From a virus, in the IMG/VR virus record IMGVR_UViG_3300033141_001766, positions 1 to 37,464 of that record: DNA of 37,464 nt; one strand, 5' to 3'. Below, in pieces: positions 10,868 through 28,756 of this stretch. The notes beneath the pieces were generated by a model, which searched no databases, had not been told where the DNA came from, and saw nothing but the letters and a program-made list of their open reading frames with translations. Both the position numbers and the translations under genes were made by a program. The stretch's first letter is position 1. Each line of letters begins with the position of its first letter.

Positions 10868-11626
10868 ATGAAAAAACTTTGTAAAAAAATAGTCGTTGCA
10901 AACGACTTTCAAATACCTTTTCACGATAGAAAGCTGTTAAAGCTCTTTAACAAGTTTTTAAAATACTTTAAACCCAGTTTACTAATCATTAACGGCGACC
11001 TTCTTGATTGCTGGATGATATCAGATTTTGACAAAACCCCTAAAACTGGAATGGATTTCTCGGATGAGTTAAAACTTGGGTATCAGGTTTTAAAAGACTG
11101 GAGACGAATAATGAAAGATAAAGAAATCTGGTATATAGAAGGGAATCACGAATGGCGTTTAAAAAAGTATATAAATCGCATAGCACCAGAATTGTTTGGA
11201 TTATTATCCTTACCAGAATTATTAAAACTCAAAGAATTAAATATTCGTTGGATTGGAACAAATAAACTGGCAAATAAATGGATTGATACTTATGTTAAAA
11301 TTGGGGATATCTATGTGGGTCATTACGATAAAGTGAACAGGCATTCTGGTTATACAGCCAAGAACTTAGTTGATTATAAAGGAGTTTCTTTGATACAAGG
11401 ACATGTTCATCGTGGCGGAGTTCATTATAGAAGAACACTAAATAGTCAACAGATAACAGCAATAGAAAATTTTTGTATGTGTTCACTCAATCCAAATTAT
11501 ATTAGCGAACCTAATTGGCAACAAGGATTTTCAGTTATTTATCTTGAAAGTAAAAAGACATTTGTTTATCCAATCCATATAAAGGATTATGAATTTTACT
11601 GGGCGGATAAAAAGTTTGAAGTGTGA
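10868..11626 (+). CDS. Calcineurin-like metallophosphoesterase
   Basis: A 252-residue enzyme of the metal-dependent phosphoesterase fold. Motifs in order are NDFQIPFHD (12-20), GDLLD (43-47), GNHE (92-95) and GHVH (178-181), matching D-x-H / GDxxD / GNH(D/E) / GHxH. The first motif has Gln where His is usual. A strong AGGAGGG lies 7 bases upstream of the ATG, unlike most genes in this genome. Phage relatives are common but the substrate is generally unknown; cyclic-nucleotide, nucleic-acid or protein phosphate hydrolysis are all possible. The stop lies within the RNA hairpin at 11615-11680. Confidence 0.85.
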   Translation: MKKLCKKIVVANDFQIPFHDRKLLKLFNKFLKYFKPSLLIINGDLLDCWMISDFDKTPKTGMDFSDELKLGYQVLKDWRRIMKDKEIWYIEGNHEWRLKKYINRIAPELFGLLSLPELLKLKELNIRWIGTNKLANKWIDTYVKIGDIYVGHYDKVNRHSGYTAKNLVDYKGVSLIQGHVHRGGVHYRRTLNSQQITAIENFCMCSLNPNYISEPNWQQGFSVIYLESKKTFVYPIHIKDYEFYWADKKFEV

Positions 11627-11680
11627 GAACTGAACCGATTTCATAGAGTGTTAACAACGGTTTAGTTCCTGCACTTCAAA
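11615..11680 (+). promoter_or_regulatory. Two-stem RNA hairpin spanning the stop codon (RNase III-site-like)
   Basis: The outer stem TTTGAAGTG/CACTTCAAA (11615-11623 with 11672-11680) is perfect over 9 bp. A 3x3 internal loop follows, formed by the TGA stop codon and CTG. The inner stem pairs 11627-11637 with 11658-11668 over 11 bp with one G-U, around a 20-nt loop. The next gene's AAGGAGGG follows immediately. The architecture and intercistronic position resemble T7 RNase III processing sites; that role is inferred. Confidence 0.65.
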
Positions 11681-11690
11681 AGGAGGGAAT

Positions 11691-11777
11691 ATGAACAAGA
11701 AAAACATACTGTCTGATATGCTGTTCTATATAATAATATTGCTGTTTCTGTATCTGATAGGAATGCTGCTGGAATGA
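11691..11777 (+). CDS. 28-residue single-pass membrane peptide
   Basis: A strong AAGGAGGG is 5-6 bases upstream of the ATG at 11691. The peptide begins MNKKN and continues as an uninterrupted hydrophobic helix (MLFYIIILLFLYLIGMLL) to the end. Its stop overlaps the next ATG as ATGA. Leucine is encoded mainly by CTG, unlike the TTA-rich neighbours. Likely an inner-membrane micropeptide; the role is unknown. Confidence 0.6.
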   Translation: MNKKNILSDMLFYIIILLFLYLIGMLLE

Positions 11778-11965
11778 AAAAGGAGAAAAAAATGGTAGAA
11801 CTGCGAAAGAATCTAAAGTGTCTGATAGTGATAGTTCGTTGCCATAATCCTAATTGCCGTAATGCAGTTAAGGATGTTATAGAAGTTGAGAAGAGACTGG
11901 TTCGTTTTCGGTGTAGTCATTGTAAAAATATAACCACCCTATATTTTAGAAACAAGAGGGGGTAA
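11774..11965 (+). CDS. Small zinc-ribbon protein
   Basis: A 63-residue basic protein with cysteine pairs CHNPNC (about residues 24-29) and CSHC (about 48-51), forming one zinc ribbon. ATG at 11774 overlaps the preceding stop (ATGA), but the ATG at 11792 has a well-spaced AAAGGAG and may be the true start, giving 57 residues. Leu is often CTG. It precedes a second zinc-ribbon protein by one base, and the two probably act together in nucleic-acid binding or protein-protein contacts. No specific family can be named. Confidence 0.65.
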   Translation: MKKEKKMVELRKNLKCLIVIVRCHNPNCRNAVKDVIEVEKRLVRFRCSHCKNITTLYFRNKRG

Positions 11966-11966
11966 G

Positions 11967-12227
11967 ATGAGAAAAGGAGGAGATGGTAAAATGAAGATAC
12001 GTCATCTGACCACCAGTAGAAATCGTGTTAAGTGTCCTAATTGTGGGAAGTATGCTCTGGGAGTCATAGCTAAGTTTGGAAAGAATCTGTTTTATGGATG
12101 CGATAACTGCGAAGAAGCTTACGGACAAGGAGACCTGCCTAATCTGTGGCTGTGTCCTTTTTGCCAGACGCTTCATAGCAGACGTCCGAAGAAGTGCAGA
12201 TATTGTGGAGGGCGAAGTGACTATTAA
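11967..12227 (+). CDS. Protein with multiple zinc-binding CxxC motifs
   Basis: An 86-residue protein with four CxxC knuckles: CPNC (about 23-26), CDNC (about 45-48), CPFC (about 63-66) and CRYC (about 77-80), enough for two zinc ribbons. The first pair encloses GKYALG, the second QTLHSRRPKK. ATG at 11967 follows GAGGGGG; an alternative ATG at 11991 also has a Shine-Dalgarno (AAAGGAGG). No enzymatic residues are seen. Zinc-ribbon pairs of this size are often transcription or translation accessory proteins in phages, but this is only a class-level guess. Confidence 0.7.
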   Translation: MRKGGDGKMKIRHLTTSRNRVKCPNCGKYALGVIAKFGKNLFYGCDNCEEAYGQGDLPNLWLCPFCQTLHSRRPKKCRYCGGRSDY

Positions 12228-12231
12228 TCTA

Positions 12232-12324
12232 ATGATTCCAGATTTTCTTATACTTCAGTTTGCTGCCCTCGGGTTTTTAATAGTTCTTTTTATAATTCTC
12301 AATGTCTTTTTAGACATTGATTGA
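12232..12324 (+). CDS. 30-residue hydrophobic micropeptide
   Basis: ATG at 12232, four bases after the previous stop, encodes a short peptide that is almost wholly a membrane helix (ILQFAALGFLIVLFIILNVF) ending LDID. It is the second membrane micropeptide of this block (see 11691). It has no strong Shine-Dalgarno. It may contribute to lysis or membrane alteration ahead of the lysis genes, but this is context only. Confidence 0.5.
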   Translation: MIPDFLILQFAALGFLIVLFIILNVFLDID

Positions 12325-12328
12325 TTAC

Positions 12329-12405
12329 GGCGGGGAGGAACACACGCACACCGAATGTAAGCCACATCGGTGAAGCCAGCTCGGCTAGAGAGGTTTCTCC
12401 CCGCC
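12329..12405 (+). ncRNA. GC-rich branched RNA element upstream of the amidase gene
   Basis: GGCGGGGAG (12329-12337) pairs with CTCCCCGCC (12397-12405). Inside lie CACCGA.../...TCGGTG extended by TGT/ACA around an AAGCC loop, and a second small hairpin AGCC/GGCT. The result is a three-way junction in a markedly GC-rich island 12 bases before the amidase ATG. The closing stem is followed by T and CCA, like a tRNA acceptor end, but no T-arm or anticodon arm fits. It is likely a cis-acting leader or processing element. Confidence 0.55.
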
Positions 12406-13985: not shown

Positions 13986-14006
13986 ACCTTTTCAATCCTA
14001 AGTAAG

Positions 14007-14032
14007 AAAAACCACCTAACTAGGTGGTTTTT
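14007..14032. terminator. Bidirectional intrinsic terminator between the converging arms
   Basis: A perfect inverted repeat, AAAAACCACCTA (14007-14018) and TAGGTGGTTTTT (14021-14032), is separated by 2 bases. It gives a stem with an A-run before and a T-run after on both strands. It lies 21 bases beyond the last rightward stop and before the end of the leftward arm. Confidence 0.9.
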
Positions 14033-14040
14033 CTATTCGG

Positions 14041-14269: not shown

Positions 14270-14461
14270 TTATAATTCTTTTAATAATTTTCTTGTTTTT
14301 ATAATTTTTTTCAATATTTTTTTATAAGTAACTGAAGGATAAGAATATATTTTACCTCTAAACCTACACATTTCCTGATTTATAACTTCAGTACTTGGAT
14401 GAGATAATAATAAATCTCTTAAATCTTTATTTATTTTTATTGGTTTTTGTTTTATATTCAT
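14270..14461 (-). CDS. Small basic protein, last gene of the leftward arm
   Basis: A 63-residue Lys/Ile-rich protein starting at 14461 inside the end of the upstream gene (35-bp overlap). It has no cysteine motif or membrane helix; the C-terminal third (KKILKKIIKTRKLLKEL) is a strongly basic amphipathic helix that could bind nucleic acid. The long overlap argues for caution. No family is recognised. Confidence 0.5.
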   Translation of the reverse strand: MNIKQKPIKINKDLRDLLLSHPSTEVINQEMCRFRGKIYSYPSVTYKKILKKIIKTRKLLKEL

Positions 14462-14714
14462 TTATCCATTCAATTATTTCATTTATTTTTTTTGTAAGCA
14501 CATAAAAATTATGTAAGATTTTTTCCTTACTTAAATCTTCTCTCTCTTCAATATAATAAGCATCTCCTTCTATATCTAATAGTTTTTCTTCTATTTCTTG
14601 TATTTGCCAATTTAAATATTCTTTTATTTTATATTCTTTTTCTGCTAAATTGTTTATTGTTTCTTCAAAAAGATTATAAGGAATTTTTTTAATTGTTTTA
14701 TTTTTCTTTTTCAT
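14427..14714 (-). CDS. Helical protein of unknown function
   Basis: A 95-residue protein, almost entirely charged helix (LAEKEYKIKEYLNWQIQEIEEKLL) and likely coiled-coil. Its first residues (MKKKNKTIKKIPY) resemble the start of the 15557-15297 gene (MKKKKLIKNVPY), and the DNA upstream of both starts is also alike, pointing to a partial duplication in this operon. It overlaps the 19-residue remnant frame upstream by 17 bases. Confidence 0.55.
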   Translation of the reverse strand: MKKKNKTIKKIPYNLFEETINNLAEKEYKIKEYLNWQIQEIEEKLLDIEGDAYYIEEREDLSKEKILHNFYVLTKKINEIIEWINEYKTKTNKNK

Positions 14715-14757
14715 AATTTTCTAAATATTCTTTAATTGTTTTATTTTTGTTGGTCAT
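14698..14757 (-). pseudogene. 19-codon remnant similar to the C-terminus of the 15873-15535 gene
   Basis: ATG at 14757 overlaps the methyltransferase stop (ATGA) and runs 19 codons, ending IKEYLENYEKEK. The 15873-15535 gene ends IKEYLEDYEKEKTN, and the following start of a MKKK protein is also matched. The simplest reading is a duplicated gene junction of which only the tail of the upstream gene survives, now possibly translated as a coupling peptide. Confidence 0.5.
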
Positions 14758-15266
14758 AAATTATTAAAAATAACTATCATTAAGGGTTTAATATAACCAA
14801 CTTTTCCTTTTGGAACTTTATATTTTCCTTCTTCTGTTCCAAATGCAAATCCACGCTTTGGTTTTTCTAAAAAATCTATAAAAACATTTGGTTTTGATTG
14901 ACATTTTTCTTTGTCCCAAATCCATTTATGAAAATATCTTGTATGGGTTGAAGCAGGAATTAACATTACTGTAAATGCTTTTTCTGTAGCGGCTTTTTCT
15001 ACAAATTTTCCTATATGCATATCAAATGGTGGATGACAATAAACAATTTTCCCTGTCCAGTTTTGTTTTAAACAATCTTGTTCCTTTGTCCAATAACGAG
15101 GCAATAAATGATTTTTATCAGAAGCACAAGCATCTATTGTAAAACTTAATCCAATTTTTTCCATTTTTTTATTGATGTATTCCCAAATATCTTTTGGGGT
15201 TCTAATATACTTATATGATTTAGAGGTCATAAAACTTAATGTATTTTTAGCAATGTTTCTTTTCAT
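14754..15266 (-). CDS. Phage Dam-type DNA N6-adenine methyltransferase
   Basis: A 170-residue protein of the short phage DNA adenine methyltransferase family. TPKDIWEYINKKM (about 23-35), TIDACASDKN (43-52), a WTKEQDCLKQNW stretch and VYCHPPF (75-81) follow the family order. Motif IV, normally (N/D/S)PP(Y/F), is HPPF here, which may reduce or alter activity. Met13 is a possible alternative start. Such enzymes typically methylate adenine in short motifs to evade restriction or influence replication and packaging. The gene lies near the end of the leftward accessory block. Confidence 0.8.
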   Translation of the reverse strand: MKRNIAKNTLSFMTSKSYKYIRTPKDIWEYINKKMEKIGLSFTIDACASDKNHLLPRYWTKEQDCLKQNWTGKIVYCHPPFDMHIGKFVEKAATEKAFTVMLIPASTHTRYFHKWIWDKEKCQSKPNVFIDFLEKPKRGFAFGTEEGKYKVPKGKVGYIKPLMIVIFNNL

Positions 15267-15296
15267 ACTTCTATTTTAAATTATAAATAATAATTA

Positions 15297-15557
15297 TCAT
15301 AATTTTCTAATTGATTTTATGAATCCTTTTGGTATCCATTTAGGAGTTCCGTAAGGAGCAAAATCATCGTTAAATTCTTTACTCATTGCCAGAATAATAA
15401 AATCTTCTGTTTCTTTAATGAAATAACCAACAGTTAAAGCACAAGTTTTTTTAGTTTTTTCATCTATTTCTTCTTCGGTAAACCAGCTACCATATCCAAA
15501 AGTATCAACCCATTCTATTTCATAAGGAACATTTTTAATTAGTTTTTTCTTTTTCAT
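15297..15557 (-). CDS. Conserved-looking small phage protein of unknown function
   Basis: An 86-residue protein with a compact, aromatic-rich centre (WVDTFGYGSWFTEEEI, TVGYFIKETEDFIILAMS) ending in PKWIPKGFIKSIRKL. This alternating pattern looks like a small beta barrel rather than random coding. It overlaps the upstream gene's last 23 bases. I do not know a function; related-looking proteins occur in other phages as unknowns. Its N-terminus resembles that of the 14714-14427 protein. Confidence 0.65.
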   Translation of the reverse strand: MKKKKLIKNVPYEIEWVDTFGYGSWFTEEEIDEKTKKTCALTVGYFIKETEDFIILAMSKEFNDDFAPYGTPKWIPKGFIKSIRKL

Positions 15558-15873
15558 AATCTTCTAAATATTCTTTAATTTTTTGATTAAGTTCTTGAAC
15601 GGCTTGGTTGTAGCCTCTATAATTTATATTTATCGGTTTACTAAAATCTGATGGTTTTAATTTACCCTCAAAAACTATTTGTTTAGTTTTTAATTTTATA
15701 TAATCAGCAAACTTTTTCAGTTCTTGTTTAATGGTTTTATGGATAAATAATATAATCTCTTTATAATATTCAGGGTGATTTGGAAATATTCTTTTTCCAT
15801 CTATTTCTAAATCAAAAAATTTAAATCTTTCATCAAACTCTTCTTCCCAAGTTGTTTTATTTTCTTTTTTCAT
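15535..15873 (-). CDS. Charged helical protein of unknown function
   Basis: A 112-residue protein when started at the ATG at 15873; an in-frame TTG at 15882 is the only longer option. Lys/Glu-rich helices dominate, with a short central segment INYRGYNQAVQELNQ. Its C-terminal residues are duplicated in the remnant at 14757-14698. The 19-bp motif shared with another gene's upstream region lies about 33 bases before this start. There are no recognised domains. Confidence 0.55.
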   Translation of the reverse strand: MKKENKTTWEEEFDERFKFFDLEIDGKRIFPNHPEYYKEIILFIHKTIKQELKKFADYIKLKTKQIVFEGKLKPSDFSKPININYRGYNQAVQELNQKIKEYLEDYEKEKTN

Positions 15874-15905
15874 AATTATCAATTGAGGTTTGGGTTTTGG
15901 ATTTC

Positions 15906-15924
15906 ATAAATTTTTTACGACCTT
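15906..15924 (-). repeat. 19-bp upstream repeat, copy 1
   Basis: ATAAATTTTTTACGACCTT (plus-strand reading) is identical to 16533-16551. On the minus strand it precedes the start of the 15873 gene by about 33 bases, and the other copy precedes the 16492 gene by about 41 bases, so it is a candidate shared regulatory or processing site. Confidence 0.7.
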
Positions 15925-15938
15925 GTTAAATTAAATTT

Positions 15939-16157
15939 TTATAAGCTCCAGTTCTTGCTCCCACTCCAACTCCAACTCCTACTCCTACTCCTACTCCTAC
16001 TCCAACTCCTACTCCTACACCTACTTCCACTCCAACTCCAACTCCTACACCCACTCCCACTCCAACTCCAACTCCTACTCCAACTCCCACTCCTACTCCA
16101 ACTCCTACTCCTACACCTACTCCAATCAGAACCAGTTTTTAATATTTGTATATTCAT
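15939..16157 (-). CDS. Doubtful Ser-(Arg/Trp/Gly) dipeptide-repeat frame
   Basis: A minus-strand frame of 72 codons starts at ATG 16157 in an ATGA overlap with the 16492-16154 gene, the coupling used all along this operon. After eleven ordinary residues it becomes a run of Ser alternating with Arg, Trp or Gly, generated by the hexanucleotide repeat at 15957-16127. Against it, the variable base of the hexamer is non-synonymous in this frame but synonymous in the opposite-strand Thr-Pro frame. It may be a real SR-like peptide or a chance frame through a repeat. Confidence 0.3.
15957..16127. repeat. Hexanucleotide repeat array, unit ACTCCN, about 28 units
   Basis: Plus-strand ACTCCA/ACTCCT/ACTCCC units run nearly uninterrupted for about 171 bp. 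On plus they encode alternating Thr-Pro in a frame open from 15945 to the stop at 16140-16142, with variation almost only at third codon positions, but no start codon exists in that frame. On minus the array is a run of GGAGT units, G-rich and Shine-Dalgarno-like. It lies between two genes of the leftward operon. Confidence 0.95.
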
Positions 16158-16492
16158 TTTTGTTCTTTGAGAAGTTTATGTTTCCAAGGGAAAAAGTCGG
16201 TTACCGCTTCAATATTCACATAACAATCTCCAACTGGTTCTACTTCGTTTACCTCACCTTTAAAAATGGTATCCATAAAGCGGGCAGATTCTGCCACCCA
16301 AGCGGCATCTTTCAGGTATAGAAACTTGCCGACTATTTTTTCCACACGACCAACCATATGGTAGGTAACAGTTCTGAAAAACCACTTACCTCCGACCAAA
16401 TCTTTATAGGAGTTGATTTCCTTGTAATCATCCTCCTGAAGTTGGTCTTTTATTTTCTCAAAAGTTTCTTCTGATATTTCTATTGTAGGCAT
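16154..16492 (-). CDS. Unknown acidic phage protein
   Basis: A 112-residue protein beginning MPTIEISEETFEKIKDQL, with a central FFRTVTYHMVGRVEKIVGKFLYLKDAAWVAES region that looks like a small beta domain and a C-terminal FFPWKHKLL. The compact order of conserved-looking aromatic and Gly residues suggests a folded domain; similar proteins are frequent phage unknowns. Codon use is more balanced than in neighbouring genes. It is preceded by the 19-bp repeat and the hairpin at 16551-16579. Confidence 0.7.
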   Translation of the reverse strand: MPTIEISEETFEKIKDQLQEDDYKEINSYKDLVGGKWFFRTVTYHMVGRVEKIVGKFLYLKDAAWVAESARFMDTIFKGEVNEVEPVGDCYVNIEAVTDFFPWKHKLLKEQK

Positions 16493-16532
16493 TTATTCAA
16501 ATCTATTTAACAAAATAGATTTTAGTTAAGTT

Positions 16533-16551
16533 ATAAATTTTTTACGACCTT
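16533..16551 (-). repeat. 19-bp upstream repeat, copy 2
   Basis: Identical to 15906-15924. Here it directly abuts the hairpin at 16551-16579 and lies about 41 bases ahead of the 16492 start on the minus strand. Confidence 0.7.
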
Positions 16552-16579
16552 CTTGAGAAAATAAATTGCTTTCTCAAGA
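16551..16579 (-). promoter_or_regulatory. Perfect 10-bp hairpin between leftward genes
   Basis: TCTTGAGAAA (16551-16560) and TTTCTCAAGA (16570-16579) pair perfectly around a 9-nt loop. No T-run follows on either strand, so it is more like a processing or mRNA-stability hairpin than an intrinsic terminator. It separates the structured RNA island from the next coding region. Confidence 0.6.
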
Positions 16580-16589
16580 TTAGTTTTCA

Positions 16590-16776
16590 ATGCCCCCACT
16601 AAATAGGGTAATAAAAGGATTTGGTCGTTTTATGTTGGTTTAAGGGCGACTGGATTAATCCAGTGTTCGTCCTCTGCAGACAAACGTACCCTATTCAGAC
16701 TCGTATATTCCAGACTTGGATCCAGCCCGTCATCCAAAGCTGGTTACACCCCATCCAGAATATCGGTCGGGGGCAT
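16590..16776 (-). ncRNA. Large branched structured RNA candidate (187 nt)
   Basis: ATGCCCCC (16590-16597) pairs with GGGGGCAT (16769-16776) and closes two arms. Arm 1 has AATAGGGTA (16602-16610) with TACCCTATT (16687-16695) and inside it GGGCG/CGTCC capped by ACTGGA-TTAA-TCCAGT (16649-16664). Arm 2 has ATATTC (16705-16710) with GAATAT (16758-16763) and inside it TTGGAT/ATCCAA (16716-16721 with 16732-16737). The island is clearly richer in G+C than its surroundings and has no credible ORF. Strand is taken as that of the operon; the fold is possible on either. It matches no RNA class I recognise. Confidence 0.55.
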
Positions 16777-16816
16777 ATTTTATTTTAAAAGAAAACTCCC
16801 TTATAGGAAAATTATC

Positions 16817-17128
16817 CTACTTTGAAAAACTTATTGTTTTTTTAATAAACCTCCTTTTTCCTTTAGGAAAATACCATATCTCCATTTGATGACCAATTGG
16901 TTTAAAATTCTCAGTTATTTCTTTGAGCTTTTTCGGAATCCCCATATGACCTTTAACAGCAATCCATCGTATAGGACACCCTTCTTTATAGGCAACAATG
17001 TCCCATCTTCCAAAATAATCTGTATTGTATCCTTTTGTTGGTCTTGAGGGTCTGATTTTAAAGTCAACTTCCCAGCCATTTTCTTTAAGCTCCTTGATCG
17101 CTTTTTTTTCATAAACACTTCGGGGCAT
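16817..17128 (-). CDS. Putative PD-(D/E)XK nuclease / resolvase-like protein
   Basis: A 103-residue protein beginning MPRSVYEKKAIKELKENGWEV, then GRWDIVAY (about 41-48) and IRWIAVKGH (about 53-61). The order helix, xxxD-(V/I), strand, x-V-K resembles the small VRR-NUC / Holliday-junction-resolvase-like core, with Asp44 and Lys59 as candidate metal-site residues. The usual acidic residue two before the Lys is Ala here, so activity is uncertain. It shares one base with the gene upstream, beside a RecB-like nuclease, so recombination or replication-fork processing is plausible. Confidence 0.5.
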   Translation of the reverse strand: MPRSVYEKKAIKELKENGWEVDFKIRPSRPTKGYNTDYFGRWDIVAYKEGCPIRWIAVKGHMGIPKKLKEITENFKPIGHQMEIWYFPKGKRRFIKKTISFSK

Positions 17129-17409
17129 TATAATATTTTCTCTACTTTGTAGAGAGTTTTATTACCAGTTCCAATTCTTGTAACCTTTACAATATCTCCT
17201 TCTTTTACCTTAGCAAATTCTTTAGCTGTCTTAACTGACGAAGTAGACAAAACTTTTCCATTTATTTTATACTGAATAACTTCTTTATCTGGATTAAAGA
17301 AAGAAGAAGTTACCTCATAACCCTCATATTTCCCCTCTATTGATTCTCCATCAGCTAAGGTAATAAAAGAAGAATTTTCTTCTATAAATTCATCTAAACT
17401 TTTTGCCAT
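17128..17409 (-). CDS. Small beta-rich protein, possible OB-fold DNA-binding accessory protein
   Basis: A 93-residue acidic protein with segments SIEGKYEGYEVTSSFF, VIQYKINGKVLST and VKEGDIVKVTRIG that read like the strands of an OB-type barrel. It overlaps the Cas4/RecB-like nuclease gene and touches the small nuclease gene, so a single-strand-binding or nuclease-partner role is suggested by position. No aromatic DNA-binding signature is decisive and no family is named. Confidence 0.5.
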   Translation of the reverse strand: MAKSLDEFIEENSSFITLADGESIEGKYEGYEVTSSFFNPDKEVIQYKINGKVLSTSSVKTAKEFAKVKEGDIVKVTRIGTGNKTLYKVEKIL

Positions 17410-17960
17410 TTAAGAAGTTCTTTGTGAAAAGCTTTGGTTCGGGAAACTATTTTCCGCCAAAGCATTTCATCAAAGTTTATTAAAAAATCTTTAGTTGTAT
17501 TTTCTTCTGGGAAAAGTGGTCTCGACCCCCTAACTTTTATATATGTAATCCAAGCTGTTTTTTTCTTTAATGCTTCCATATAACAATGAACTTGATAAAC
17601 ATGGGCTTGATATGGTTTAATAGGAAATTTTTCACAAGTTTTTAATTCTGCTATTCGGTTATTTATAAACAAATCTATTTTTCCTACTATTTCCAAATCG
17701 TCTGTTATTGGAATTCTAATTTCTTTCTCTTGATTTTCTTGATGATAAATTTCTTGAATTCTGGAATGCCATAAGCTTCCCGTATTCATATAATGAAGTC
17801 CTATTCTGTCTGGTTTTTGTCTTTCAAAAAAATCTTTTGGAGTAATTTTACCCATAACAACGTCATAAATCATTGATGCATGAATTTCGTTCTTATTAGG
17901 TTTATGCCAATCTGATATTTCTTTTGAAAAATATTCATAGTATTTATCCTCTAATTTCAT
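17394..17960 (-). CDS. Cas4/RecB-like PD-(D/E)XK exonuclease
   Basis: A 188-residue nuclease starting at the ATG at 17960, seven bases after the preceding stop. The longer frame from 18017 lies over the previous gene. Core residues are His65 (GSLWHSRIQ), Asp96 (IVGKIDLF), Glu105-x-Lys107 (IAELKTC) and Gln123-x3-Tyr127 (YQVHCY), the complete RecB-family nuclease signature. The four-cysteine iron-sulfur cluster of true Cas4 is absent. Phage proteins of this type act in recombination or DNA-end processing during replication. It is grouped with the helicase-like ATPase and another nuclease-like gene. Confidence 0.85.
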   Translation of the reverse strand: MKLEDKYYEYFSKEISDWHKPNKNEIHASMIYDVVMGKITPKDFFERQKPDRIGLHYMNTGSLWHSRIQEIYHQENQEKEIRIPITDDLEIVGKIDLFINNRIAELKTCEKFPIKPYQAHVYQVHCYMEALKKKTAWITYIKVRGSRPLFPEENTTKDFLINFDEMLWRKIVSRTKAFHKELLKWQKV

Positions 17961-17967
17961 AATTAAA

Positions 17968-18216
17968 TTAGTACGGAGGATGAGCCTCCTTTTCTTTATT
18001 TTCCTCCTCAACTCCATTTTCTGGTGGATATTTCTTTAAAAGATAGTCAGTTAATTCTTGAGCAACTTCTACAATTTGTTTTCTTATTTCTTTTTTATCA
18101 ATAAACTTCCAAACATCATCTAAACTACCAACAATCGTATTAAAAATTCTCAAAAACGTATCTCTTTTGGCTTTATTAAACTGATTTTCAAATGGTGATT
18201 TGGGTGATTTATTCAT
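17968..18216 (-). CDS. Small helical protein of unknown function
   Basis: An 82-residue protein when started at ATG 18216, which overlaps the upstream gene's end by 8 bases; the longer frame from 18261 is mostly over that gene. Helical stretches (RDTFLRIFNTIVGSLDDVWKFI, IRKQIVEVAQELTDYLLKKY) are followed by an acidic and proline-rich tail. No motif is recognised. Its place directly upstream of the RecB-like nuclease suggests a replication or recombination accessory role. Confidence 0.55.
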   Translation of the reverse strand: MNKSPKSPFENQFNKAKRDTFLRIFNTIVGSLDDVWKFIDKKEIRKQIVEVAQELTDYLLKKYPPENGVEEENKEKEAHPPY

Positions 18217-18553: not shown

Positions 18554-18600
18554 ATTACTTAATTTAAGTATAAAAAATTATAAATAAAAAGTCAAATAAG

Positions 18601-18609
18601 TTATCCACA
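18601..18609 (+). promoter_or_regulatory. DnaA box TTATCCACA
   Basis: A perfect DnaA-box consensus in the short gap between the helicase-like gene and the HTH/zinc-ribbon gene. It could contribute to host DnaA-dependent control of this region. Other perfect copies are at 22971-22979 and 753-761. Confidence 0.45.
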
Positions 18610-18611
18610 AC

Positions 18612-20348: not shown

Positions 20349-20366
20349 ATAATTTTGAGATTTTTA

Positions 20367-20430: not shown

Positions 20431-20431
20431 C

Positions 20432-20845: not shown

Positions 20846-20857
20846 ATTTTATCACAT

Positions 20858-20882: not shown

Positions 20883-20909
20883 AAGATTAAATTAACTTTT
20901 ATTCCGACC

Positions 20910-20930: not shown

Positions 20931-20936
20931 TTTATT

Positions 20937-21482: not shown

Positions 21483-21483
21483 A

Positions 21484-21606
21484 TTATTTTAAAATTAATT
21501 CTAAAGCAAATAACCCATGAAAAAAGATTACTAAGAAAACATACATTAAGAGACCGAATAAAAGACCTCCTAAAATACTTTTTAGAATGAATTTAGTTTT
21601 CCTCAT
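21484..21606 (-). CDS. 40-residue membrane protein
   Basis: The ATG at 21606 overlaps the stop region of the upstream gene, and the frame ends TAA at 21484-21486, one base before the next ATG. A basic N-terminus (MRKTKFILKS) precedes one long hydrophobic helix (ILGGLLFGLLMYVFLVIFFHGLFALEL). Tight packing on both sides supports it as a true gene. A membrane-anchored early phage peptide; function unknown. Confidence 0.6.
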   Translation of the reverse strand: MRKTKFILKSILGGLLFGLLMYVFLVIFFHGLFALELILK

Positions 21607-21793
21607 AAAGTCTTGCTTGCCTCTCAAGAAAAGCTATGGTGTCATTAAATGCCTTCCATAACTCTTGATGAAGAGGGTTTGTTAAGTCCATTACATTGGC
21701 TTCAAAATTAGCCCGTTCTTTTTTTAGCTCTTTAATGTAGTCTTTAATTTCTTTTAATGTTGGTTTGTTGGGTAGGTGTTTTAGTTGTTTCAT
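21593..21793 (-). CDS. Small helical protein, unknown
   Basis: A 66-residue charged protein, mostly two amphipathic helices (TLKEIKDYIKELKKERANFEA and QELWKAFNDTIAFLERQARLY), which could form a helical hairpin. No motif. The leader contains two RNA hairpins (21800-21824 and 21849-21886), the first just six bases upstream of the start, suggesting translational control. Confidence 0.6.
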   Translation of the reverse strand: MKQLKHLPNKPTLKEIKDYIKELKKERANFEANVMDLTNPLHQELWKAFNDTIAFLERQARLYEEN

Positions 21794-21799
21794 AAGGTA

Positions 21800-21824
21800 A
21801 AGAATTTATTCTACATAAATTCTT
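21800..21824 (-). promoter_or_regulatory. 10-bp hairpin immediately upstream of a start codon
   Basis: AAGAATTTAT/ATAAATTCTT (21800-21809 with 21815-21824) pair perfectly around a 5-nt loop. On the minus strand it ends six bases before the ATG at 21793, where it would hide or reposition the ribosome site. Confidence 0.55.
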
Positions 21825-21848
21825 GGTTAATAATTCAACTTCTCTATT

Positions 21849-21886
21849 CCTTGCTCTAACTTACCGCTGTTTAAGTTAAAGCAAGG
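21849..21886 (-). promoter_or_regulatory. 15-bp hairpin in the early leftward leader
   Basis: CCTTGCTCTAACTTA (21849-21863) faces TAAGTTAAAGCAAGG (21872-21886) with an 8-nt loop. The single mismatch becomes a G-U pair only in minus-strand RNA, which favours an RNA function on the transcribed strand. It lies right after the stop of the 22205-21897 gene. Confidence 0.65.
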
Positions 21887-21896
21887 TGTAGAAAAG

Positions 21897-22205
21897 TTAA
21901 ATAATAATCAGGTAAAGACTGTTCCCAACCTCATCGTTCCAAGTTTTTAATATCTTATAATAAACTTGGTATTGACAACCATGTTTATCTACTATTCTTT
22001 TTAATTTCAATTTAATTTTAGGTATAGCTGGGATATATTCTTTAACTTCTTGAATTTTAAGAACATCATAAACTCTATTATTAACTCCATCTATAGATAC
22101 ATAATCGTTATTTTTAAGTCCATTTTTAATCAACCAGTTTTCAATATCGTTTTTATTCCAATATGGTTTATTAAATGTTTTAGTAGATACAATTTTAATT
22201 GCCAT
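21897..22205 (-). CDS. First gene of the leftward arm, unknown small protein
   Basis: A 102-residue, Lys/Ile-rich protein with alternating hydrophobic strands (KNNDYVSIDGVNNRVYDVLKI, KIKLKLKRIVDKHGCQYQVYYKIL), suggesting a small beta-rich fold. As the gene nearest the origin on this side it may be expressed first and could be an early regulator or host-takeover protein. No motif is recognised. Confidence 0.6.
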   Translation of the reverse strand: MAIKIVSTKTFNKPYWNKNDIENWLIKNGLKNNDYVSIDGVNNRVYDVLKIQEVKEYIPAIPKIKLKLKRIVDKHGCQYQVYYKILKTWNDEVGNSLYLIII

Positions 22206-22305
22206 TTTTAATGAACCAGCCAGCGGGTACTGGTAAAGTTTTTAAATTAAATAACCTTTTAACAATCGGGTAAACCAGCAAATCGTCATATAATTAAGCT
22301 TACTG

Positions 22306-22347
22306 AGGTGTTTTATTACCTTATATAATAGGTAAAGTCTAACACCT
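22306..22347. promoter_or_regulatory. Nested inverted repeat in the origin region
   Basis: AGGTGTT/AACACCT (22306-22312 with 22341-22347) encloses TTACCT/AGGTAA (22316-22321 with 22330-22335), with an AT-only loop TATATAAT. It could extrude as a cruciform or fold in the leftward leader RNA. Confidence 0.5.
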
Positions 22348-22435
22348 ATGAACCAGCTTTAGTTTAATTAATGCGTATTTACCAGTAAACCTTAATTTTT
22401 AGGGTGCTGTTATGTTATCAACAGCTTATATTGAT

Positions 22436-22463
22436 AGTTTAGCAAATTAAGAAGTATTGTCAA
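22436..22463 (-). promoter_or_regulatory. Candidate leftward promoter TTGACA-16-TAAACT
   Basis: On the minus strand a perfect TTGACA (22463-22458) is followed after 16 bp by TAAACT (22441-22436) with an upstream TG. The -10 match is 4 of 6. It would transcribe the leftward arm with a leader of about 220 nt, including the nested hairpin at 22306-22347. Confidence 0.4.
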
Positions 22464-22491
22464 GTCTTTGGTGTTGATAACTGGTAGAATC

Positions 22492-22537
22492 ATGTTAGTC
22501 TGATGTTAGTATGTTAGTCTGATGTTCAGATGTTAGT
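22492..22537 (+). repeat. Forward iterons ATGTTAGT
   Basis: Perfect copies start at 22492, 22503, 22511 and 22530, with a variant ATGTTCAG at 22522. Spacing alternates 11, 8, 11, 8 because pairs of units are organised as a longer 19-bp repeat. Confidence 0.85.
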
Positions 22538-22608
22538 GTAATTGGTAGTAGAATACTATTTTATTTATTTTTTATTAAGGTTTAGTAAGGTTTATTATAA
22601 TTTTAAAC

Positions 22609-22723
22609 ACTAACCTAAATAATTTCGCTAACATCAAAATAACATCACACTAACAAGGTTTTTAAAATATATATATATATAAGGCTTACATATTTCCCTA
22701 ACATACTAACATTTCCCTAACAA
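22609..22723 (-). repeat. Inverted iteron cluster (ACTAACAT orientation)
   Basis: Reverse-orientation copies or near copies occur at 22609, 22628, 22649, 22698, 22705 and 22717, facing the forward cluster across an AT-rich segment. Some end CTAACAA or CTAACCT rather than CTAACAT. Confidence 0.8.
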
Positions 22724-22970
22724 TGATATTATTAAAATGTATTGATAACTTTAAGCTTAAAATCAATGTCAAAGATTAATATTTTTTAATGTTTTAAAAG
22801 AAGTTAATTAAACATATGTTACAAGATTTGAATATTGACATTGACTAAGACCCCCTACCCCTATGGCAAGATGAGATTTTTTGATTATTAGTGAAGTTAT
22901 CCTCCCCAACCAAAATCTCAATTTCAGTCCATACTACAAAATAAATCAAAGACAATGTCAATTCATAAAG

Positions 22971-22979
22971 TTATCCACA
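22971..22979 (+). promoter_or_regulatory. DnaA box TTATCCACA in the origin
   Basis: A perfect consensus DnaA box upstream of the rightward promoter. The longer string TTATCCACAATAAAC is also found at 753-767 inside the aminotransferase gene. Confidence 0.6.
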
Positions 22980-23000
22980 ATAAACTTTTTCTTTGTTTTA

Positions 23001-23009
23001 TGTTATAAT
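23001..23009 (+). promoter_or_regulatory. Rightward extended -10 promoter TGTTATAAT
   Basis: A perfect TATAAT (23004-23009) with TGn upstream. The expected start near 23016 gives a 17-nt leader to the ATG at 23033, and it would drive the packaging/capsid operon. No convincing -35 is seen. Confidence 0.55.
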
Positions 23010-23032
23010 AAAAACAACAGCATCTTGGTCAT

Positions 23033-23412: not shown

Positions 23413-23687
23413 GAAAATATAAAACAACCAAAAAAGAAGTCACAGACGAACTGGAAAGTTCATGGCTTTTGACTAAATTAAAAAAGGAAATTATATCGTC
23501 AAGACCATCAGCAGCCAGAATAAGTGCAATAAAATTGGGTTTGGAGGTTAAAGGACTTTTGAAAGGGGATCACACCGAAATTAACATTAGGGGTCTTTAT
23601 GATAAGATTTTAGATGACCTTTACACAGAAAGACCACGTTATGAAAATACTAAATTGGAAAAAGTTAGCCCAGTTGATAGAGTTTGA
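23409..23687 (+). CDS. Possible terminase small subunit
   Basis: A 92-residue helical protein directly upstream of, and overlapping, the large terminase. Basic residues at the start (MRKYKTTKKE) and helices (SSWLLTKLKKEIISSRPSAARISAIKLGLEVKGLL) could form a DNA-binding helical bundle, but no standard HTH signature is obvious. Small-subunit genes normally sit here, so the call rests mainly on position and size. Confidence 0.5.
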   Translation: MRKYKTTKKEVTDELESSWLLTKLKKEIISSRPSAARISAIKLGLEVKGLLKGDHTEINIRGLYDKILDDLYTERPRYENTKLEKVSPVDRV

Positions 23688-25020
23688 ACCAACGCAGAAA
23701 CAACGTTATATAATTGAACATTTAAAAAGGTTCAATATTACTGTTGGGGGTAAGCGAGTTGGAAAGACAAAGTTGGCGGCGTTTTTGGCTTTATTAGAGG
23801 TTTTAAAAATGGATAAAACAATATGGGTAGTAGCCCCGCAATATGCATTAGGGGAAAGAATTTGGGATTATTTATTTCAATGGTCAACACGTTATTTAGA
23901 GGGGATTTTAAAACCAAATGTTCAACATAATTATATTGAAAACAAGGTAGCTGGTTCCATTATTAGATTAAAATCTGCTGACAATGAACTTTCTTTAAAG
24001 GGAGAAGGGCTTGACCTTGTCATAGGAGACGAAGTCGGTGACTGGAAAAAGGGTATTTGGCACAATTACGTAAGACCCAATATTACAGAAACAAGACCAT
24101 CGGGAGAAAGGGGAAGAGCATTTTTAATAGGAAACGCAAACTATTTTGGTTCAGAATGGCACCAACTTTTCTTACAAGGAAAACAAAGATTTGACACTTT
24201 TACTTATCATTTACCAACTGCAGTTGAAAGAATGGACGGCACTATTATTTCAAATAATCCTGAAATAGTAACTTCTGAAGAGTTAGAAAGATTAAAAAAA
24301 GATACGCCCGCTATTGAATGGAGACAAAACTATTTAGCTCATTTTGTAGAAGGGCAAGGAACTGTTTTTACCAACATTTTAGATTGTGCTACGGGAGACT
24401 TCAGACCAAGAAGCTCGGAACATTTTTACTATATTGGTGTTGATTTGGGCAGATTACAGGATTTTTCGGTCATTACGGTTATTGATTCTCAAACCTGGGA
24501 AGTGGTTTATTGGTCAAGGTTTCAGGAGATTGAATATCCATTTCAAAAGCGTCGTATTATGTCAGTTGTAGATCTTTATGGACGTTATAATACTAAACTT
24601 ATTATTGACCAGACTGGTTTAGGTCAACCGATTGTAGACGATTTACAAAGGGAGGGTATTAACATAGAAGGAGTAACTTTAACAAACCAAATCAAGAAAA
24701 ATTTAATTGAAAAACTTTCTATACTTTTAGAGCAAAAGAAATTACGTTATCCTAAAATACAGCAGCTTATAGATGAACTTCAGGTTTTTGGTTATACCAT
24801 GACTCAATCTGGCAGAATTAAATATTCAGCTCCATCTGGATTCCACGATGATTGCGTAATTTCTCTTGCTTTGGCTATTAAGGATTTAGAAGGAGAACCA
24901 AATCAATTTACAAAATCAAAATCTCCCGATAAAGTTTTTCAAGAAGGAAAAACAGAAAGGGTTAGAACAATTTTTAGTCGGGAGCAAAGAAAAGCACCTG
25001 TTATAAAACCATATGTCTGA
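23641..25020 (+). CDS. terL: Terminase large subunit
   Basis: A 459-residue DNA-packaging motor with ATPase and nuclease domains. Walker A is GGKRVGKT (36-43), Walker B LDLVIGDE (124-131), and the RNase H-like nuclease has Asp268 (GVDLG), Asp323 (LIIDQTG) and Asp403/404 (FHDDCVISLALA). ATG 23641 is chosen to limit overlap with the preceding gene; an in-frame ATG at 23614 would add nine residues. The nuclease cuts concatemers and the ATPase translocates DNA through the portal encoded next (8-bp overlap). Confidence 0.95.
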   Translation: MKILNWKKLAQLIEFEPTQKQRYIIEHLKRFNITVGGKRVGKTKLAAFLALLEVLKMDKTIWVVAPQYALGERIWDYLFQWSTRYLEGILKPNVQHNYIENKVAGSIIRLKSADNELSLKGEGLDLVIGDEVGDWKKGIWHNYVRPNITETRPSGERGRAFLIGNANYFGSEWHQLFLQGKQRFDTFTYHLPTAVERMDGTIISNNPEIVTSEELERLKKDTPAIEWRQNYLAHFVEGQGTVFTNILDCATGDFRPRSSEHFYYIGVDLGRLQDFSVITVIDSQTWEVVYWSRFQEIEYPFQKRRIMSVVDLYGRYNTKLIIDQTGLGQPIVDDLQREGINIEGVTLTNQIKKNLIEKLSILLEQKKLRYPKIQQLIDELQVFGYTMTQSGRIKYSAPSGFHDDCVISLALAIKDLEGEPNQFTKSKSPDKVFQEGKTERVRTIFSREQRKAPVIKPYV

Positions 25021-26797
25021 ATTAATTAATAGAGTAAGACAATTTAAACAATTTTTTGAACAAGAAAAGATTTTTAATTTTAAGGGTTTTTCGTTTAACC
25101 AACGAGAATTAATTGATTACCTTGAAAAAACCTGGAAATCTCAATATTTGCTTGGAGATAAGGACGATGAGGGTTATAGATATTTTTATAATATAGTTAA
25201 GTTCCCAGTTAAGATAGCAGCTAAAATGATTGATTTGGATACAAAGGATATTAGGATTATAGCGGAAGAGGGACAATCTTATACTCCAGTTTATTTATTT
25301 AACAAAGAACTAAAAAGCTGGATGAAAGATCAAAACCTTGGTTTAATATTGAATGAGGTTATTAGGGGAACTCCAAAATTTGGAAATCAGGTTTTAAAGG
25401 TTAAGGGATCAAATTTATCTTCTGTAAGATTAAAAAACCTTATTAATGATCCATATGTAAAAAATCTAAATGAATCGGCTGTAGTAATAGAAGAACACTA
25501 TATGACTCCAGAAGATTTGATGAAACAAACTATCTGGAACCAAGATTTGATTGATGAAATTATAGAAAGTTTCCAGGAGCAATCAAATAAATCCTATATT
25601 AAAATTGATGAAGTGTATCTTTATGCACCTAAAAAATTCTTTAAGGAAAATTCACAAGATGAAAGTCTTGTAAGGGGTATGATTATAGTGGCTGGGTTGG
25701 ATGATTATAAATTAGATAAAAATAAAAAAAATGAATTTTCGGTTATAAAAGATAATCATAAAATTTTATTTAAGGAACAGGTAGATAAATTGCCTTATTA
25801 TGAATTTTATTGGGATGATTATGAAGGAACTTGGTTGAGAACGGGTATTGTTATGGAACTTCTCGAGGAACAATTTAGGACAAACGAGACTGTTAATCTT
25901 CAAGCTAAGGGGCTTTATTGGACAACAAAAAAGATTTATCAGACAAGGGATATGATGATTCATAAAAACCTAATGACTGATGTTCAAAATGGAGAAATTT
26001 TAAGAGTTAATTCTGAAATAACTCCTGTTGCTAATGAAGAAAGAAACTTGGCTGCTTTTAACACTGAAATAAATCTTTGGGATAAAAACAGGAAAGAAAA
26101 GACTATGACATTTGAGTCTGTAACTGGAGAAACTTTACCATCTGGAACACCGTTTAGATTAGGATTTATTTTGCAACAGGCTGCAGGAGGACACTTTAAT
26201 TTCAAAAGGGAAGATATTGGTCTTATGATAAAAAGACTTTTAAGGGAGGTTATTATTCCAGAATTTAAGGAGAGTAAAAGAGGGGCTCATTTGTTTAATC
26301 TTTATGGAGAGGACAATGAATTTTCTCAATTGGAAGAGTTATGGATTGAAATGGAGATTTACAAGCAGGTTAGAAATATGATTGAAAGAGGATTTATTCC
26401 CACACAAGAACAAATAGATTTAGAAAGAGAAAATGCCAAAAAGAAATTAGCAGCTAAAAAAACAAAAGTTATAGAAATTCCAGAAGGATTTTATGATGAT
26501 TTGAAATATAAAATTGATATTATTATAACAGGAGAAAGTGTTGCTATTGATGCTAAAATGCAATCTCTTATAACTACATTGCAGACAATTGCAACCAATC
26601 CTGCAGTATTACAAAACGAAGTTACAAAGAATATTTTATTTAAGATTTTAAATCTGGCTGGTATAAGTCCAGAGGAGTTAAGGATACCAACTAAAATAGA
26701 AACAGAAGCAACGCCGCAACAAACTTTTTCCCCTCCCCCTTCTCCTAAAGGATTAAGTCCCCAATTGCAAAATATTACAAAGGAACTTAGTTTATGA
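25013..26797 (+). CDS. Portal protein
   Basis: A 594-residue protein immediately after terL, with an ATGTCTGA overlap. The size and the long helical C-terminal half, including a Gln/Pro-rich tail (TPQQTFSPPPSP), match portal proteins of short-tailed phages. A segment near residues 110-250 reads like the clip/wing beta region, and the stretch around LPSGTPFRLGFILQQAAGG (about 380-398) is typical of portal crown/stem loops. It forms the dodecameric vertex ring through which DNA enters and leaves. Family assignment is by position and overall pattern. Confidence 0.85.
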   Translation: MSELINRVRQFKQFFEQEKIFNFKGFSFNQRELIDYLEKTWKSQYLLGDKDDEGYRYFYNIVKFPVKIAAKMIDLDTKDIRIIAEEGQSYTPVYLFNKELKSWMKDQNLGLILNEVIRGTPKFGNQVLKVKGSNLSSVRLKNLINDPYVKNLNESAVVIEEHYMTPEDLMKQTIWNQDLIDEIIESFQEQSNKSYIKIDEVYLYAPKKFFKENSQDESLVRGMIIVAGLDDYKLDKNKKNEFSVIKDNHKILFKEQVDKLPYYEFYWDDYEGTWLRTGIVMELLEEQFRTNETVNLQAKGLYWTTKKIYQTRDMMIHKNLMTDVQNGEILRVNSEITPVANEERNLAAFNTEINLWDKNRKEKTMTFESVTGETLPSGTPFRLGFILQQAAGGHFNFKREDIGLMIKRLLREVIIPEFKESKRGAHLFNLYGEDNEFSQLEELWIEMEIYKQVRNMIERGFIPTQEQIDLERENAKKKLAAKKTKVIEIPEGFYDDLKYKIDIIITGESVAIDAKMQSLITTLQTIATNPAVLQNEVTKNILFKILNLAGISPEELRIPTKIETEATPQQTFSPPPSPKGLSPQLQNITKELSL

Positions 26798-27072
26798 TAT
26801 TAACAGAAAAAGAAAAAAACTTTATAAGAAATATTTTTAATAACGAAGAGGCAAAACAAATTTATGCTGATATTTGTAATAAAAAAATTAGAGAATTTAC
26901 GGATTTAGCTACATTTGGAAAATTGCCTCATGAGGAAAGGCTTTCTATTCAGGAAATTTATTCTGGGCGTATGACAGCGGCAGAGTTAGTTAAAAGTTTT
27001 GCTTACGAACTTTTTAGATTATCAGAACCAGAAAAGAAAAAAGAAGAAAAAGAAAACAAACCTCATATTTGA
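26794..27072 (+). CDS. Small acidic/helical protein between portal and scaffold
   Basis: A 92-residue protein starting in an ATGA overlap with the portal gene. Helices cover most of it (EKEKNFIRNIFNNEEAKQIYADICNKKIREF, TAAELVKSFAYELFRL), ending in a Lys/Glu-rich tail. Position suggests a head-assembly helper. Its TGA is inside the outer stem of the RNA hairpin at 27069-27118. Confidence 0.55.
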   Translation: MILTEKEKNFIRNIFNNEEAKQIYADICNKKIREFTDLATFGKLPHEERLSIQEIYSGRMTAAELVKSFAYELFRLSEPEKKKEEKENKPHI

Positions 27073-27118
27073 TTATCTATTTGGGGAGAAAGCCTCCTCT
27101 CCCCAAACGGGTAATCAA
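27069..27118 (+). promoter_or_regulatory. Two-stem RNA hairpin spanning a stop codon
   Basis: The outer stem TTGATTA/TAATCAA (27069-27075 with 27112-27118) contains the TGA stop. A 4x4 internal loop leads to the inner stem TTTGGGGAGA/TCTCCCCAAA (27080-27089 with 27098-27107) with an 8-nt loop. A second, smaller hairpin, ACGCC/GGCGT, follows at 27162-27178. The structure separates the portal-side genes from the scaffold and capsid genes and may be cut by RNase III. Confidence 0.65.
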
Positions 27119-27161
27119 ACCCTGTATTGAAGGTGTGCCCCCCTTGTTAAAAGCGGGTGTC

Positions 27162-27178
27162 ACGCCCTCGCCAGGCGT
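27162..27178 (+). promoter_or_regulatory. GC-rich hairpin in the scaffold-gene leader
   Basis: ACGCC (27162-27166) pairs with GGCGT (27174-27178) around CTCGCCA, 8 bases before the scaffold ATG. The whole 27119-27180 leader is unusually GC-rich for this genome. Confidence 0.45.
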
Positions 27179-27186
27179 TTATAAAT

Positions 27187-27747
27187 ATGGCAGAAGAACA
27201 AAACACTGAGGTTCAGAATCAACCTACCCAAAATTCTGAGTCTGTGGAGACTGAAACACCACGTGAGCAAGAAACTCAAACAGAGGATATTTCTTCTGTA
27301 AAAGAGGAGCTTGTTAAAAAACAAAAAGAAATCGATAAGCTCTATGCAAGAGCTAAACAGGCTGAGGAGAATGAAAAGAAACTAAAAGAAAGGCTTGCGG
27401 CTCTTGAACCTAAAGAACCTCCTCAGCAAACCCAATCTAAAATAGATCCAGTCGAAATTGAGGAAAGAGTAGAACTGCGTTTGCAGGGTTATAATCCTCA
27501 AGAAATTGAATATATAAAAAAGTTTCGCAAAGAGGGTCAAAGTCTTCTTGAAGCGGCTAAAGACTCTTTTGTTCAGGCTGGTATAGAGGGTTTAAGAGCT
27601 AAGGCGAAGGTCGAGCAAGCCACGCCTAATCCTTCTAGTCGTACTGGCGTCGTTGAAGGAAAGTCTATTGGGGATATGACTCCCCAAGAGAGGGCTAAAC
27701 ACTTCAATTATGCCGCTTGGAAGGCTAGAAGGAAAAGTAAAGTTTAA
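27187..27747 (+). CDS. Probable scaffolding protein
   Basis: A 186-residue acidic, Gln/Glu-rich protein with a coiled coil at about residues 40-85 (EELVKKQKEIDKLYARAKQAEENEKKLKERLAALEP) and a basic C-terminus (KARRKSKV) of the kind that contacts coat protein. It sits directly before the major capsid gene, the usual place of scaffold genes. The ATG at 27187 is preferred to the GTG at 27157 because the latter lies in the structured leader. The call rests on composition and location. Confidence 0.75.
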   Translation: MAEEQNTEVQNQPTQNSESVETETPREQETQTEDISSVKEELVKKQKEIDKLYARAKQAEENEKKLKERLAALEPKEPPQQTQSKIDPVEIEERVELRLQGYNPQEIEYIKKFRKEGQSLLEAAKDSFVQAGIEGLRAKAKVEQATPNPSSRTGVVEGKSIGDMTPQERAKHFNYAAWKARRKSKV

Positions 27748-27763
27748 TTAGTGCCCTTAAAAA

Positions 27764-28693
27764 TTGGCTTTAACGACAGATCCTTGGGATGCAACTGAAT
27801 TAGTTGCCTATATAAAAGAGGTTTGGACGCCTTTAACTAATGAAGAATTCTTCGCAAAGGCTGTTGCTACTAACTTCTTTACGGATCTGTCCCAGTATGC
27901 TACAGACGGAGGAGATATTTTGCACGTTCCTAATGTCTTCTCAAACAGTTTTTCTGTGCAAACCCAATCAACACAGGGAGCTGAAGTGACCACCGAGGCT
28001 CCTGCAACTGCTGATGATACACTGACTATTAACAATCATGTGTACATCGCTACTTTGTTGGGTTATCTCCAGCAAGTGCAAGTTGCGAGTATTTATAACC
28101 TTTCTGAAATTTATTCCAGAAAGGCGGGTGGTACACTTATGGAAGACTTAGAGGGGGATATTTTTGCATTGCAGTCTTCTGTTACGACTAACACCGTCAA
28201 CGATACCGCTTCGGTTGTTGACGATGTTAATTTGAGGATTGCAATTGAGAAGCTAGATACTGCCGATGTTCCTCTTGATGAATGTGCATTCTTCTTCCAT
28301 CCGTATACCTACTGGGCTCAGATTCATGCCATTCAGAAATATTATGACGCAAGTCAAGCAGGATGGGCTGGAAATACTCCAGTTAAAGATGGTAACTTTG
28401 GAGTAACAGCTGGACAAAAGAATGCTCTTCGTGGGCAACTGTTCGGTATTCCCGTTTATACATCTTCAAAGGTAGTTAATACCTTGTTAGCTGTCAGAAA
28501 CTTGCTGGCTCACAAAACTGCTTTTGCATTTGCCGTTCAAACTCCAGGCGGTAAACCAATTAGGGTTCAGTCTGCTAATTGGTTAGAGAACCTCGGTGTT
28601 CTTACTGTTTGGGATATGATTAACGGCGTTGCAGAAGTAAGGGAAGAAGCTGCAGTAAGAATTGACGGTTCTAACGCATTCATCGCATCATAA
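27764..28693 (+). CDS. Major capsid protein (HK97-type fold)
   Basis: A 309-residue protein following the scaffold gene. The N-terminus is helical, and a beta-rich run (VQTQSTQGAEVTTEAP, LTINNHVYIATLLGYL) resembles the E-loop/P-domain of capsid proteins. GIPVYTSSKVV and later AVREEAAVRIDG resemble the A-domain end. The start is TTG at 27764 (stop in frame at 27758), unusual for so abundant a protein. Codon choice is visibly more GC-ending than in neighbours, as expected of a highly expressed gene. It is followed by the hairpin pair at 28708-28756. Confidence 0.85.
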   Translation: MALTTDPWDATELVAYIKEVWTPLTNEEFFAKAVATNFFTDLSQYATDGGDILHVPNVFSNSFSVQTQSTQGAEVTTEAPATADDTLTINNHVYIATLLGYLQQVQVASIYNLSEIYSRKAGGTLMEDLEGDIFALQSSVTTNTVNDTASVVDDVNLRIAIEKLDTADVPLDECAFFFHPYTYWAQIHAIQKYYDASQAGWAGNTPVKDGNFGVTAGQKNALRGQLFGIPVYTSSKVVNTLLAVRNLLAHKTAFAFAVQTPGGKPIRVQSANWLENLGVLTVWDMINGVAEVREEAAVRIDGSNAFIAS

Positions 28694-28707
28694 TAATTAT
28701 GATGACG

Positions 28708-28756
28708 CCCCGTTTCCTATCTGGTGAAACGGGGGAAGTAACCAGGTCTTCCCCCG
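28708..28756 (+). promoter_or_regulatory. Competing hairpins downstream of the capsid gene
   Basis: CCCCGTTTC (28708-28716) can pair with GAAACGGGG (28726-28734), while CGGGGGAAG (28730-28738) can pair with CTTCCCCCG (28748-28756). They share 28730-28734 and exclude each other in part. Loop sequences CTGGT (28721-28725) and ACCAG (28741-28745) are also complementary. A short AT tract follows. It could be a terminator/stabiliser for capsid mRNA or a processing site. Confidence 0.6.

Follow-up and report, generated by a model that had tools for sequence, protein, structure and literature searches.

Hairpins at gene junctions of the window

We analysed a virus record of 37,464 bases (IMG/VR IMGVR_UViG_3300033141_001766), the whole of which is called the window here. 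A phage collection searched with the window gave no near match. An SU10-type adaptor gene lies at 897 and an endolysin gene at 12418, an early arm occupies 14270-22205 on the minus strand, and terminase, portal, scaffold-like and capsid genes lie at 23614-28693. The major capsid protein gene (MCP, 27764..28693, plus strand; phrog_267 major head protein, 2.5e-12) stands upstream of a pseudoknot element (28694..28765, plus strand), a divergent copy of the conserved family described below, and a gene for a small protein without assigned function follows (28775..29155, plus strand). No relatives of the early gene at 20937-21482 turned up in a viral scan. One contig (L005) is near-identical to the window and has no informative differences within the elements; within its capsid gene, at 6182-7317, a stretch is locally misassembled or duplicated. 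In the divergent region of the window, at 22205-23030, ACATACTAACAT / TGTTAGTCTGATGTTAGT motifs are repeated in an iteron-like manner. A 195-nt multibranched, G+C-rich structure (16586-16780, minus strand; z -5.9), closed by an 8-bp stem (AUGCCCCC/GGGGGCAU), lies between two early ORFs; it had no match in Rfam and is a candidate structured noncoding RNA.

Strong hairpins are located in the gaps between genes of the window. An earlier note on this DNA had pointed to three two-stem hairpins at gene junctions, and all three are present where it had placed them: element A (11615-11680, plus strand; z -6.1), with a 20-nt loop, element B (20366-20431, minus strand; z -5.2) and element C (27068-27119, plus strand; z -7.4), which precedes the scaffold gene. 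The RNA of element B is that of the minus strand, since both adjoining genes are on that strand. In A and C the stop codon of the upstream gene falls within the element, and at B it precedes the element by 1 nt, in agreement with the note, which had placed it in the element or just before. When the window was scanned without bias for an outer stem, a small internal loop and an inner stem, and compared with shuffles, the four top-ranked structures were A, B, C and a 29-bp hairpin in the early arm (21833-21902, minus strand), the strongest in the window (z -10.7); at a score of at least 44 the scan returned two structures on the plus strand and three on the minus strand, against 0.05 per strand in shuffles. 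A 30-bp hairpin with one bulged base precedes the SU10-adaptor gene (811-880, plus strand; z -9.5), and a branched hairpin with a 13-bp closing stem precedes the endolysin gene (12329-12405, plus strand; z -5.2). Folding against shuffled sequences, a check that the note had proposed, places the named hairpins beyond chance, at z of about -5 to -11. For each of the six strong hairpins, folding was more favourable for the transcribed strand than for the complementary one, the energy gap being widest at 811-880 (-40.5 vs -19.2 kcal/mol), and two-stem hairpins were enriched outside ORFs in 20 records, the window and 19 relatives (15 at a score of at least 46, 0 in shuffles). Both results support the view that these elements are intergenic and act at the level of RNA.

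Between element A and the branched hairpin, at 11691-12330, there are small CTG-rich, Zn-ribbon-like ORFs, some with Shine-Dalgarno sequences, which are rare elsewhere in the window genome; the region looks like an acquired cassette. Sub-threshold Rfam matches in the window (mir-3914 and others) were set aside as chance fits to hairpins.

Elements A, B and C were searched for at the homologous junctions of relatives and were not found; for A and C, those junctions hold no matching hairpin. Covariation therefore can neither test nor support the three. A and C look like plain hairpins. In B, a third helix (CUUUUUA/UAAGAAG) would give a pseudoknot of the same topology as the conserved element, with a score within chance. 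Hairpins of 31-37 bp are found in the early arm of the relatives G011 and G015 (L087 11395-11873 and L093 19379-19457, minus strand), at a place comparable to that of the window hairpin at 21833-21902; two of them are followed by a T-tract. Upstream of scaffold genes, L081/L082 (G007) and L085 (G008) have short hairpins with a common loop like GUAAGCAUAUCC, and a motif like CCTCTATAAACAC occurs upstream of the scaffold gene in several relatives.

A pseudoknot family at the capsid junction

The element that is conserved is one that the earlier note had ranked as minor, a single or branched hairpin at 28708-28756, after the MCP gene. Capsid relatives were gathered in three scans, which gave 103 distinct junctions. 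Comparing junctions by reading, we found one architecture recurring with different letters in the gaps after the capsid stop: an element some 55-65 nt long, located between the capsid gene and its downstream neighbour, in which an outer stem (P1) encloses an H-type pseudoknot (P2/P3) and the next AUG comes close behind. The pseudoknot is present in 82 of the 103 distinct relatives (73 loci by a per-locus shuffle test, minus the plain terminator L162, plus nine recognised by eye and the window). Its helices are short (6-14 bp), and the median distance is 14 nt from the capsid stop to P1 and 2 nt from the end of P1 to the next AUG. In L135, L145 and L177 an extra small gene follows the capsid gene, and the knot comes after this insertion, before the following gene. 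Across 784 kb around the capsid genes of the first two relative sets, both strands counted, there were 28 strong matches (score at least 56) against 0 in shuffles; all lie at the capsid junction, and many are a single element seen on both strands.

Here the statement of the earlier note that structure is kept while sequence differs holds strongly. In a plain MAFFT alignment of 21 members, paired cells reached 97.0% and covariation 0.557, compared with 0.176 after shuffling and at most 0.106 after sliding, and five of the seven pairs of the crossing helix have compensatory changes. RNAalifold recovered P1 and P3 unaided, and a covariance model of P1 and P2 gave at most one match per record, at the capsid junction wherever checked. 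The sense strand outscored the antisense strand 44 to 20 over all knots, a preference to which we give no weight because that strand had served for choosing the elements. The predicted structure of the knot and its conservation, read from aligned sequences, are in our judgement hardly open to doubt.

Loops are partly conserved within one clade (a bulged A, and loop ends with A and G). Comparison by eye showed no unpaired nucleotide shared by the two clades and no Rfam ribozyme matched, and a small self-cleaving ribozyme was rejected as a candidate. We also rejected a stimulator of frameshifting or readthrough at the capsid stop, where the spacing from stop to P1 runs from 0 to 47 nt and no slippery site was seen. 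Searched with Rfam 15, the window gave no match below E 1 that reached the gathering threshold, and 38 relatives gave none at that threshold. The pseudoknot is a phage RNA family absent from Rfam; an earlier computational listing is possible, coverage of the literature being partial.

The copy in the window is divergent and degenerate. Helix a (9 bp, 28708-28716/28726-28734) and helix b (7 bp, 28719-28725/28741-28747) cross in the family order, an alternative helix c (9 bp, 28730-28738/28748-28756) excludes a and also crosses b, and a weak outer stem corresponds to P1 (28698-28702/28759-28763), all on the plus strand; the ATG of the next gene is 18 nt past the end of the element. Alone, this copy is marginal against shuffles (p about 0.01-0.05), and its place and topology are what suggest membership in the family. 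As a nested fold, 28708-28756 is weak (z -2.5) because it is a pseudoknot, and the description as a single or branched hairpin gives way to the nested pseudoknot that is conserved there. In the nearest relative (L010) the element is present in a weak form only.

Versions of the element occur in the cultured cyanophages PP, LPP-2, Lbo-JY12, Lsp-JY17 and Pf-WMP3. Phage A-4L has a terminator at the capsid junction instead, and three Pelagibacter phages have plain hairpins there. In cultured cyanophages of the Pf-WMP4 and LPP-1 groups (L116, L210-L214) a long hairpin, mostly not a pseudoknot, follows the capsid gene, and its outer stem differs on both sides between the groups (GGGC/GCCC, GCGC/GCGC). 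A second scan of genome contigs found seven relatives, the first having found none; the knot is present in one of the seven, a MAG-labelled Tenericutes contig (L203), which is too weak a basis for assigning hosts. In L032, L041, L049 and L067 insertions of roughly 0.6-0.8 kb interrupt the capsid gene; these are probably introns or the work of homing endonucleases.

Terminators and leaderless promoters at the same junction

In 15 relatives that lack the knot, an intrinsic terminator lies in the same gap (13 found by a detector, two weaker ones by eye). Knot and terminator are mutually exclusive at the capsid junction; the sole overlap between the 73 knots of the shuffle test and the terminator detector is L162, itself a plain terminator. 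On the capsid tree the terminator state requires at least eight changes, indicating that knot and terminator have been swapped repeatedly. A TATAAT-like -10 box ending 5-8 nt before the ATG, which is the spacing of leaderless mRNA, was found at 11 of the 12 terminator junctions with an identified start. None of 45 AUG-abutting knots has such a box (P = 6.5e-11), and among 18 distal knots it is present in 4, no recognisable promoter being found behind the other 14. A leaderless promoter lies behind the knot in L021, L023, L026, L042 and L128. Genome-wide, leaderless spacing is mildly enriched only, and Shine-Dalgarno motifs are rare (52 of 558 genes). Judging from these sequence patterns, a terminator together with a leaderless promoter probably does the same job as the knot.

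A proposed mRNA boundary and comparable systems

Since a terminator occupies the same spot in other relatives, the probable role of the RNA is to keep the capsid message and the next gene apart, and the interchange with a terminator and leaderless promoter points to this separating role, for which RNase III cutting would be only one possible means. We favour this reading with reasonable, not strong, confidence. The conserved element would be a cis-acting mRNA boundary between the capsid gene and the next gene, by which highly expressed capsid mRNA would be uncoupled from a scarce downstream product with no terminator or promoter needed. Processing or a block to decay is the means that we tentatively put forward, with somewhat less assurance than an even balance would give. 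The compact knot would block 3'-to-5' decay of the capsid message and, we infer, mark a cut at or near the border of P1 and the AUG; it would mask the following start codon as long as the RNA is uncut, so that most translation of the next gene would start from processed RNA with almost no leader at its 5' end. The promoter-backed knots suggest that the knot does the job of the terminator, providing the capsid 3' end, and the AUG-abutting knots suggest that it also sets the start of the next gene. A decay-blocking processing boundary accounts best for both types, whereas a pure translational gate accounts for the AUG-abutting type only. Boundaries of this kind in simpler form are a plausible reading of the other hairpins in the window gaps.

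Such a gate, in which the knot would hide the start of the next gene, keep its protein scarce and be opened perhaps by a phage protein, as at the T4 gene 32 operator, or by ribosomes, is a rather unlikely alternative that nonetheless fits several observations: P1 ends so near the AUG, the knot keeps its place beside the next gene despite gene insertion, and Shine-Dalgarno sequences are rarely used, so that structure at a start should matter. However, L021, L026, L042 and L128 have kept knots that are separated from the AUG by 27-44 nt containing a leaderless promoter, and the two capsid clades have different next genes, making a fixed autoregulator unlikely. Unlikelier still is a start-codon-abutting device through which the downstream gene would need neither promoter nor Shine-Dalgarno sequence for its expression: the knot might direct a cut precisely at the P1/AUG border, giving leaderless mRNA by processing, or might place the ribosome on the AUG, the latter variant resembling the intergenic IRES pseudoknots of some eukaryotic viruses.

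The earlier note had proposed RNase III processing sites of the T7 kind. The 20-30 bp hairpins at window gene junctions are intercistronic double-stranded stems as that proposal expects, and the intergenic enrichment of two-stem hairpins and the long early-arm hairpins of G011 and G015 agree with it; for the long hairpins RNase III is possible. The conserved element, however, is a pseudoknot of short helices, a form that T7 sites are not known to take, and as an overall explanation RNase III processing seems improbable. We find it very unlikely that the knot is itself a transcription terminator, one that lacks a U-tract. Its mutual exclusion with intrinsic terminators would suit that role, but the conserved knot is not a G+C-rich hairpin followed by a U-tract, a U-tract behind it is not general in the family, the window phage uses a canonical terminator-like hairpin elsewhere (14001-14035), and full termination would silence the next gene, as most knots have no promoter behind them. 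Inverted repeats acting in DNA, as cruciforms or as protein-binding or replication sites, can be dismissed almost entirely: DNA can also extrude at long perfect inverted repeats, but G.U pairs outnumber A.C pairs 11 to 5 in the aligned family, the window hairpins fold better on the transcribed strand in every case, the ties to the next AUG and to terminators are strand-specific, and crossing helices make little sense for a cruciform.

If the boundary reading is true, folded RNA has taken the place of transcription signals several times in a large group of phages related by their capsids, most of them uncultured, which bears on the ratio of capsid to downstream head protein in phages that rarely use Shine-Dalgarno sequences. 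The mechanism can be tested, since PP and LPP-2, which carry the knot, are cultured phages of Leptolyngbya.

The RNase III sites of T7 are structured intercistronic RNA at the gene junctions of a polycistronic phage message, and the elements described here are like them in this respect. T7 processing sites are not known to be pseudoknots, whereas in the conserved element, which is not a plain hairpin, a nested pseudoknot runs up to an AUG. Mu-gpT-DE is, by its name, also a downstream element of a phage gene, that of the Mu head protein gpT. This phage RNA motif is Rfam RF03012 (PMC7657543), and the Rfam search, which included it, gave no match here. The operator of T4-type gene 32 is a pseudoknot in a phage mRNA leader and, according to a review, possibly the only one by which a virus autoregulates translation (PMC3014915). 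Likewise, crossing P2 and P3 form an H-type pseudoknot in the leader of the next gene here; the gene 32 knot, however, belongs to one gene, lies 67 nt upstream of its start and binds gp32 (PMC3014915), whereas the capsid-junction knot has a gene on either side, sits within an additional stem and in most cases runs up to the AUG. The L17 downstream element is a conserved structured RNA in the 3' UTR of a highly expressed gene, and its authors called 3'-UTR regulation in bacteria highly unusual (PMC2864571); it belongs to cells (Lactobacillales, Listeria) and often has no annotated gene directly behind it, whereas the knot is phage-borne. Neither position, topology nor Rfam matching places the knot in the gene 32, Mu-gpT-DE or L17-type systems. 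The intrinsic terminator with a leaderless promoter shares its very junction in relatives; a terminator acts on RNA polymerase, whereas the knot is generally without a U-tract and, where it abuts the AUG, without a promoter. If the boundary reading holds, the two arrangements can be compared as natural replacements for each other at one junction.
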